Source of the DNA: Streptomyces coeruleorubidus
GTDB taxonomy: Bacteria; Actinomycetota; Actinomycetes; Streptomycetales; Streptomycetaceae
Direction of reading: 5' to 3'
Length of the DNA: 64,000 nt
Assembly (NCBI RefSeq): GCF_028885415.1
Contig: NZ_CP118527.1
Coordinates: forward strand, 1,116,001 to 1,180,000
The position numbers and the translations under genes were made by a program. The stretch's first letter is position 1. Every line of letters starts with the position of its first letter. Below, one piece after another: positions 32,228 through 33,349 of the stretch. The notes beneath the pieces are model-generated. The model did no database searches. It was given only the letters and a program-made list of their open reading frames with translations, and was not told the origin of the DNA.

Positions 32228-33349
32228 TCACCCGGGGCGGTGCTCCCAGCCCCGGTCGGTGCGGGTCAGCTCGCGAAAGCCCGCACCTGTCAGGTGGCCG
32301 AGCATGGTGCTGTCGGCGGCGGATTCGTAGGCGACGAGCCGGTCGACACCGCACAAGCGAAGCCAGTCGGCGGCCTGGCCGAGCAGCCAGTGCTCCAGTC
32401 CCGTGCCGTACTGCGCGGGGTCGATGTGCAGGTTGCCGATGTCGGCCAGACCGGCGGCGCGGGCGTGGCGTTCCGGGCGGGCCAGGGCCGTGTCGATCTC
32501 GACGAAGCCCAGGGGGCGTCCGCAAAGTCCCGTCGTCCGCCGGGAGGGCGGGCCCTGCGGCGTCCGGTGCGTGCTCTCGGCGTGCCGGGCGGACGCCCGC
32601 GTACTGGTTGTACGCGGGTGTTCACCCGGTGCGGCGAGTGGGGGTCCCCCCTGCTCGAAGCGCTTGGGGGAGCGTGCCGGGCGTCGCAGGGCAGGCGGGA
32701 CTTTGCGGACACCCCCTGGGGCGCCGGTGTCGGCGCGGGCCGTGAAGCGGGTGCCGCACTCCCCCAGCGTGCGCTCGATCGTGACGCCGGGCCGGGGCTC
32801 GGGCGCCGGCAGGTCGGCCACCCGGGCGATCAGGATGACCTCGGTGTCCCCGACGTGCCGGAAGCCCGCCCGTTCGTAGACGGCCCGGATGTGCGGCCAG
32901 TTGCGGGGCAGGCCGTAGACGAGGGGGGCGGGCAGCGCGCCGTCGGCGTACCGGACGCGTACGTTCCAGCGGGCGAACTGTGCCAGGCACGCCCGCATCA
33001 GGAGGTCAGCGGCCTGGTCGGCGTCCGGCCAGAACGACGCCGCCGGACGGCACACGAACCAGTCGATCTCGGCGGCGTCCCGGTAGCTCTCGCCGACCTC
33101 GGCGTCGGCGCGGTAGCGCAGCAGGTGGGCCGCGGCGACGACGTACTCGCGCTGCTCGGCGACGAGCGTCGTCCGCTCGGCCACCCACGGGTCGGTGATG
33201 AACTCGCCGGGCTGCCGCTCCAGGTCGCTGAGGACGGTGTTGACCGAGACCGAGACTCCGGGGACGACGGCCGCCACGTGCATGTTGACCAGGTCGGTGA
33301 GCTGGTCGCGGTCGGCTCGGCGGAAGGGGCGCACCTCGAGCGCGGGCAT
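32228..33349 (-). CDS. GNAT-family acetyltransferase interrupted by an in-frame palindromic insert
   Basis: 373-aa protein from ATG 33349 (AGG upstream). N-terminal GNAT half: LEVRPFRRADRDQLTDLVNM to WPHIRAVYERAGFRHVGDTE. The C-terminal half has LGFVEIDTALA, GNLHIDPAQYGTGLEHWLLG (acetyl-CoA loop) and MLGHLTGAGFRELTRTDRG. Between them, residues about 210-280 (starting GVRKVPPALRR, ending SRRTTGLCG) are Pro/Arg-rich and unlike GNAT. They coincide with a 213-bp element with 25-bp terminal inverted repeats, 71 codons in length, which keeps the frame. Without it the protein would be about 302 aa. Activity may be reduced or retained, because the insert sits between strands of the second module. Confidence 0.85.
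   Translation of the reverse strand: MPALEVRPFRRADRDQLTDLVNMHVAAVVPGVSVSVNTVLSDLERQPGEFITDPWVAERTTLVAEQREYVVAAAHLLRYRADAEVGESYRDAAEIDWFVCRPAASFWPDADQAADLLMRACLAQFARWNVRVRYADGALPAPLVYGLPRNWPHIRAVYERAGFRHVGDTEVILIARVADLPAPEPRPGVTIERTLGECGTRFTARADTGAPGGVRKVPPALRRPARSPKRFEQGGPPLAAPGEHPRTTSTRASARHAESTHRTPQGPPSRRTTGLCGRPLGFVEIDTALARPERHARAAGLADIGNLHIDPAQYGTGLEHWLLGQAADWLRLCGVDRLVAYESAADSTMLGHLTGAGFRELTRTDRGWEHRPG
32508..32720. mobile_element. MITE-like palindromic element inserted in-frame in the GNAT gene
   Basis: The ends are inverted repeats: CCCAGGGGGCG plus TCCGCAAAGTCCCG on the left (32508-32532), matched by the reverse complement at 32696-32720 with one mismatch in 25. Partial symmetry continues inward (GCCCTGCGGCGTCCGG versus GCCCTGCGACGCCCGG). 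The interior holds a perfect hairpin (ACGCCCGCGTAC / GTACGCGGGTGT, 32593-32621) and a GGGGGTCCCCC palindrome near 32640. No transposase is encoded. This pattern matches small dispersed palindromic repeats seen in Streptomyces genomes. The insertion date and target-site duplication could not be defined. Confidence 0.75.

Follow-up and report, generated by a model that had tools for sequence, protein, structure and literature searches.

Several families of palindromic repeats are known to lie in frame within bacterial protein-coding genes. Rickettsia palindromic elements (RPE), of ~150 bp, occur in frame in unrelated protein genes, and a review reports the proposal that they are compatible with the structure of the proteins (PMC10969869). 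Wolbachia palindromic elements (WPE) are described as in-frame, mostly stop-free insertions inside recombination genes (PMC4224334). In Coxiella, the MITEs QMITE1 and QMITE2 are sometimes found in frame in hypothetical ORFs, have direct repeats that vary in sequence and measure 2-3 or 7-11 nt, and in the case of QMITE2 reside mainly in 3′ untranslated and intergenic regions (PMC5896051). For Streptomyces, a literature search that included few subscription journals found no published report of in-frame MITEs.

The locus examined here belongs to a window of 64,000 nucleotides of Streptomyces coeruleorubidus DNA. Very probably, a MITE with IS5-type ends has entered a tandem-GNAT gene in frame and would be read through, perhaps with tolerance by the enzyme, an outcome that seems to recur in the family. 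Judged by analogy, the phenomenon is of the Rickettsia/Wolbachia palindromic-element type, carried into a free-living actinobacterium. The likeness to RPE consists in palindromes placed in frame within unrelated protein genes; the likeness claimed is one of functional class, the Streptomyces element working like an RPE. The differences are a free-living, high-GC host, ends matching those of an IS5-type element, phase-fixing CTAG-type junctions, and peptides from four frames as opposed to one conserved peptide. WPE share the in-frame palindromes but have an endosymbiont as host, and Coxiella QMITEs share the location of a MITE in the frame of an ORF but differ by their variable direct repeats and by the position of QMITE2 mostly outside ORFs. 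What sets the Streptomyces case apart from these three systems is that the host is free-living and rich in GC, that an IS is its likely parent, that the target imposes a phase rule, that four frames are readable and that the tips vary over a common core.

The host gene encodes 373 amino acids in a reading frame devoid of internal stops, as the original prediction had it. Its homologues are named N-acetyltransferase or GNAT, are mostly 304 aa long without the insert, and come from Streptomyces wherever the organism is named. A Pfam scan of the 373-aa protein returned no family at E <= 0.01. Two GNAT folds are nevertheless recognizable, since tandem GNATs are among the best PDB matches of the predicted structure at a TM of about 0.5, for example 2wpw, a tandem GNAT of the clavulanic-acid pathway, and mycothiol synthase (2c27/1ozp).

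Table 1. Features of the interrupted acetyltransferase gene, in coordinates of the window
Feature	Position	Strand	Basis or remark
Tandem-GNAT acetyltransferase gene carrying the insert	32228..33349	minus	ORF, homologue names and fold
Terminal inverted repeat, 5′ side of the gene	32696..32720	minus	junction tetramer CCAG
Terminal inverted repeat, 3′ side of the gene	32508..32532	minus	junction tetramer CTGG
Inner hairpin, with two 29-nt arms complementary at 79%	32576..32638		arm pairing and folding
Nested small palindromic unit	32639..32672		alignment of copies; also present by itself at other places of the genome
Net inserted DNA, 207 nt = 69 codons, lacking in orthologues	32513..32719	minus	protein alignment and flank-joined tblastn

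The insert has the size and structure of a MITE, with 203-213 bp, terminal inverted repeats and no transposase gene. The two outer arms of 25 nt are 96% complementary (24/25), and the 213-bp block has a folding energy as RNA of -150.2 kcal/mol, shuffled sequences averaging -99.9 (sd 4.6; z -11.0), while a control stretch of equal length from the same gene gives a z of -0.57. Arm pairing and folding thus confirm the 25-bp ends, inner symmetry and strong hairpin that had been noticed at the outset. The predicted length of 71 codons is to be corrected: the frame is indeed kept, but relative to orthologues the gain is 69 codons (CCA...CCC, placed between GCC for Ala and CTG for Leu), because the 213 bp include symmetrical junction bases at both ends. 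The term 'exonised' that had been applied to the event is likewise loose; in-frame insertion it is, but splicing is not involved. In Rfam, the block gave a sub-threshold microRNA match (26.9 bits, gathering score 75), which is taken as chance.

Orthologues were expected to lack the segment, and they do. In an alignment of 13 proteins it is absent from all 11 others, the two carriers being the 373-aa protein and P0001 of Streptomyces sp. NPDC050416, which has a 59-residue insert at the same place. Among the 120 homologues listed (of 2478 matches), P0001 is the one with an insert at the site, and the other 119 measure 280-317 aa. At the level of DNA, tblastn with the flank-joined protein gave 44 orthologous loci, 43 of which cover the site, none with an insert; the match at the remaining locus (L115) stops before it. 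In 392 genus genomes, 46 have a match at E <= 1e-60, some of them merely element copies, and no match runs from the GNAT gene into the insert apart from that of the source genome itself.

The sequence of the insert is a dispersed, multicopy repeat. BLAST of the block against the source genome yields at least 34 matches, three of which are the block itself, while the rest fall at at least 21 other places (three of these match solely around the nested unit); as 40 of 172 candidates were scored, the copy count is a lower bound. The 14-nt core of the ends, with at most one mismatch, matches 21 times in this genome (two being the block's own) versus 6 for a reversed control pattern. The length of the copies varies between about 70 bp and more than 200 bp. 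Elsewhere, four of 12 genomes searched have any end matches, with 48 in G016 and 18 in G017, and exact ends occur 41 times in the 392 genus genomes, 13 of which are positive. The mobile-element reading is supported by the recurrence of ends that might have been unique, together with the orthologues devoid of the segment.

Most frequent among the complete copies is a form that adds a net 177 nt, with a core of 167. The GNAT insert corresponds to this form plus a nested unit that explains its excess of 30 nt; outside the unit, 166 of 177 nt are identical to an intergenic copy in genome G275. The nested palindromic unit is also present alone at two places of the source genome (L027, C1:4405802; L029, C1:8387070), so that the MITE seems to hold a smaller repeat. 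One and the same MITE core is found with differing outer tips (TGTCGTCAAATTCCCG, TTGCGAAAGTGG, CTTCTGATGGATCTCCG and others) at L002, L004, L008 and L011 of the source genome, and differing tips also occur among the proteins P0123, P0128, P0131 and P0134. The core looks as if it had been paired with the ends of different IS5-type elements. Phages gave no match to the element, and no exact end patterns were found in viral contigs. On plasmids, 21 records match; of 20 listed places, 17 carry no annotated feature, two belong to unannotated records and one lies in a DUF6309 CDS. On a plasmid of Streptomyces sp. SAT1, a 231-bp copy (L220, 1486-1716) occupies a place annotated with two overlapping DUF6309 CDSs; its net length, 235 nt, does not divide by three. 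This copy is apparently a frame-breaking insertion.

A likely parent is identified through the tips. At a contig end of G017 the MITE tip is followed by unrelated sequence, and the same tip bounds an 893-bp element (both CTAG included) on plasmids of S. nigrescens and Streptomyces sp. NBC_01334 (L218/L219). This IS5-type element of ~893 bp contains two overlapping transposase frames, with a DUF4096 domain (PF13340, 1.3e-29) and a DDE domain (PF01609, 9.3e-24), and has CTAG on both flanks and tips ending in GTGTCCGCAAAGT. The MITE resembles this Streptomyces IS5-family member by the tips and the flanking CTAG; it differs in having no transposase, and the significant DNA match is limited to the ~20-bp tips, the interior not being matched. 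The suggested existence of a parent transposase with the same ends thus holds for other Streptomyces through L218/L219, by the tips. It does not extend to the source genome, where GTCCGCAAA ends lie near none of the 17 matches to DUF4096 transposases, the class to which this search was confined, in 1.5 kb on each side; the copies there accordingly look orphaned.

In the genus genomes, the exact ends are preceded by CTAG (32), CCAG (5), CTGG (2), CTCG (1) or CAAG (1), the first C and the G of this tetramer being fixed by the search pattern itself. CTAG is present on both sides in 19 of 26 copies with both flanks, a biased proportion in that several loci were fetched by patterns containing CTAG or C..G; the flank counts from the copy finder of the frame test, which demanded CTAG-like flanks and is circular in this respect, are left unused. 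The GNAT insert has the junctions CCAG/CTGG (window 32508-32513 and 32715-32720). Its orthologues read CTC-G at the site in 32 of 41 cases, CTG-G in two and CTA-G in none, so that a CTAG target there would be a deduction and not an observation. A second copy, L007, has CTAG/CTCG, and its four relatives all have CTC-G. Since CTAG is its own reverse complement, which matters for reading any target-site duplication, the sequence of the junctions at the GNAT gene and L007 may reflect either a duplication or AG/CT borne by the element. In the 64-kb window, CTAG occurs 7 times versus 30.0 expected from trinucleotides; the preferred target is depleted.

These data suggest the following course of events. 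A MITE with IS5-type ends would have transposed into a CTNG-like site of the tandem-GNAT gene, between Ala and Leu codons, presumably mobilised in trans by a transposase from an IS that shares its ends. With a net 207 nt and no stops, the GNAT frame would be kept, and the mRNA would be translated straight across the insert. A Pro/Arg-rich disordered loop would thereby be added where a beta-hairpin of the C-terminal GNAT domain makes its turn, and the enzyme may tolerate it, with chances slightly better than even. In-frame read-through would be a recurrent outcome for this MITE family.

The position of P0001 raises the question of whether the site was entered once or twice. In a gene tree of 120 rows, confined to proteins of 290-320 aa (which leaves out the listed homologue P0028, of 280 aa), the source protein and P0001 do not group as sisters: the tree requires two changes, and the proteins are joined in 0% of 200 bootstrap trees. 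A non-sister position of this kind is not what a simple single insertion predicts, judging from the tree. It is a tangible, if lesser, possibility that two MITEs were inserted independently at the same codon, as opposed to one insertion that was inherited and then lost or exchanged. Besides the tree, double insertion would fit the presence of the common 59-codon form in P0001 and of a 69-codon form in the source gene, and the fact that the source insert is as near to the intergenic G275 copy (50/59 residues; 166/177 nt) as to that of P0001 (51/59 residues). It is countered by at least three residues (P1, L11 and R26 of 59) that the source and P0001 inserts share and the G275 copy lacks, and recombinational exchange of alleles would account for the tree and the shared residues alike. 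The DNA of the P0001 gene was not found in the 392 genus genomes, nor in a second draw of 390 which seems to represent the same set.

Whether the long protein is tolerated was approached through its predicted structure and the evolution of its gene. The AlphaFold model (63 rows) has a mean pLDDT of 69.4 and a pTM of 0.63; residues 210-274 fall below 50 and stand between strands 200-206 and 279-286 of the C-terminal domain; five shorter stretches of the protein likewise have a pLDDT below 50. In this model, the insert is a disordered loop between two strands. Compared with S. swartbergensis, the GNAT gene shows 29 synonymous and 8 nonsynonymous changes (dN/dS 0.09); dN/dS is 0.13 relative to S. 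coeruleorubidus and 0.25-0.36 relative to eight more distant species. Lineage-specific synonymous and nonsynonymous changes number 10:2 in the source, compared with 5:4 and 6:2 in its nearest species, S. swartbergensis and S. coeruleorubidus. These ratios support constraint on the flanking GNAT gene. Frame breaks are found in the insert-free genes of G139 (L141/L177) and S. afghaniensis 772 (L119) and, distantly, at L104, L121 and L123, some of which may be assembly errors; the GNAT gene may therefore be dispensable. In S. coacervatus (L115/L122), some 19 kb separate the two parts of the GNAT gene, which is broken near residue 195.

It is rather unlikely, though worth serious consideration, that the insertion inactivated the enzyme, with a frame open by chance, a gene that drifts and a long protein that is useless or not made. 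Dispensability as suggested by the broken insert-free relatives would agree with this, as would a hairpin strong enough to hinder translation, and when a related 173-bp copy is shuffled with its palindrome preserved, any one given frame stays open in 35-39% of cases. Against inactivation stand the low dN/dS to the nearest species and the excess of synonymous changes in the source lineage (a small count, part of which may predate the insertion), as well as the insert of P0001, which differs in length yet is also in frame. On balance, the predicted enzyme has a slightly better than even chance of keeping its function despite the insert.

Further apparent in-frame insertions occur in the source genome and among predicted proteins in databases. 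Gene context, defined as an open 240-bp frame with a third-position GC >= 0.88 on both sides (some copy borders being set by eye), was checked at 17 of 22 places of the source genome, and the same frame is found on both sides at two of them, the GNAT gene and L007. L007 (1500-1556; C1:4746674-4746732) encodes a 17-aa in-frame remnant, GGVRKVPPALRRPARPL, in a gene which, from its sequence, we take to resemble penicillin acylase. The gene was found in four of five relatives searched, and the 17 residues are absent in all four. Two unrelated genes of this genome thus combine an in-frame insertion with empty orthologues, as in the RPE-like functional class.

A search with the insert peptide in the first frame gave 19 proteins among 79 candidates, namely P0001 and 18 others, including an SDR oxidoreductase whose identity to the insert is 91%, ABC ATPases, a phosphotransferase, DHDPS, GH13, an amino acid kinase, a histidine kinase, a mannosyltransferase, AraC and others. 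The first search pointed to a single frame because that frame alone had been searched; a special coding frame for the family was rejected when the other three frames gave at least 49 further proteins, in a second search of about 100 words over three frames with 7980 candidates scored, whose sensitivity differs from that of the first. At least 68 database proteins, nearly all from Streptomyces, thus contain a peptide encoded by the element, with best frames A0 in 19, A2 in 20, B0 in 24 and B2 in 5. The idea that at least one frame of the palindromic family is readable proves to be an understatement, since peptides of all four CTAG-compatible frames are represented. These proteins were predicted by gene callers, programs that are biased towards in-frame cases and can produce spurious ORFs where GC is high, and orthologues were compared for P0001 alone of the 68.

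The insert is internal, with more than 30 residues on both sides, in 59 of the 68 proteins, and a precomputed Pfam domain is available for 47 and lacking for 21. Pfam was run on 20 of them (10 of the 19 from the first search and 10 of the 49 from the second), P0001 being scanned separately. A domain is aligned across the insert in four of the 20 (P0144, P0148, P0163 and P0164). In four others (P0129, P0130, P0153 and P0178) the domain match is split into two stretches; the better stretch has one of its limits at the insert, and the position of the second is deduced. P0159 also has two stretches, the better one not touching the insert, and in P0125 the insert separates two ABC domains. In the remaining scanned proteins the insert lies at a domain edge or between domains, or the match is on one side.

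The four frames follow from a phase rule. Within a coding sequence, CTAG is readable solely as CTA-G or xCT-AGx, the third phase being a stop, so that four readings are possible, two per strand. As CTAG forbids one phase and the strands of a palindrome are alike, a stop-free element whose length is a multiple of three would be readable however it lands in a gene. All four allowed frames are open in the six distinct 173-bp copies (net 177 nt) examined that bear GTGTCC tips. The two copies of 173 bp that end in TGTCGTC tips have two open frames, and the GNAT insert is open in three of the four CTAG-compatible frames, with a stop in one. In a table of 30 rows (24 distinct copies, six loci appearing twice), the length does not divide by three in 10 rows, and 18 are interrupted by a stop in one or more of the allowed frames. 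All four frames are open in 3.8% of palindrome-preserving shuffles and in 12% of plain dinucleotide shuffles, a rarity that is suggestive of selection for readability without proving it.

On this basis, it is conceivable but doubtful that a widespread Streptomyces MITE superfamily, with one core and exchangeable IS5-type tips, constitutes a frame-neutral cassette that makes disordered insertions of ~60-75 residues and whose readability is under selection. More specifically, the element may have been selected as harmless in genes, its length in multiples of three and its open CTAG-compatible frames being kept as read-through copies survive; this is unlikely. It would be in keeping with the recurrence of the net 177-nt form with different tips, with the six GTGTCC-tip copies seen against the 3.8% of palindrome-preserving shuffles, and with proteins showing all four frames. 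However, plain dinucleotide shuffles reach the same state in 12%, the copies are related by descent, so that their four-frame openness counts as about one observation, the frame table includes the copies of unsuitable length or with stops mentioned above, and the GNAT insert itself has one closed frame. At least one copy whose length is not a multiple of three also lies where the two overlapping DUF6309 CDSs are annotated. Finally, an ancestral origin of the 69 residues, followed by loss in most orthologues, is extremely improbable, as no supporting point was found, the segment is by length absent from all 119 other listed homologues, and its sequence also stands elsewhere as a dispersed repeat.

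The in-frame palindromic elements found in print are those of intracellular bacteria, where weak selection offers a natural excuse for their persistence. Here the hosts are large free-living soil bacteria with growable and editable strains and a likely parent IS, which makes it testable whether such insertions amount to noise that is tolerated or open a way to new protein parts. The finding also serves as a warning about protein databases: dozens of their Streptomyces entries include a segment derived from a transposon. Were the doubtful cassette reading to prove true, the family would steadily supply unrelated enzymes with disordered insertions, each about 60-75 residues long.
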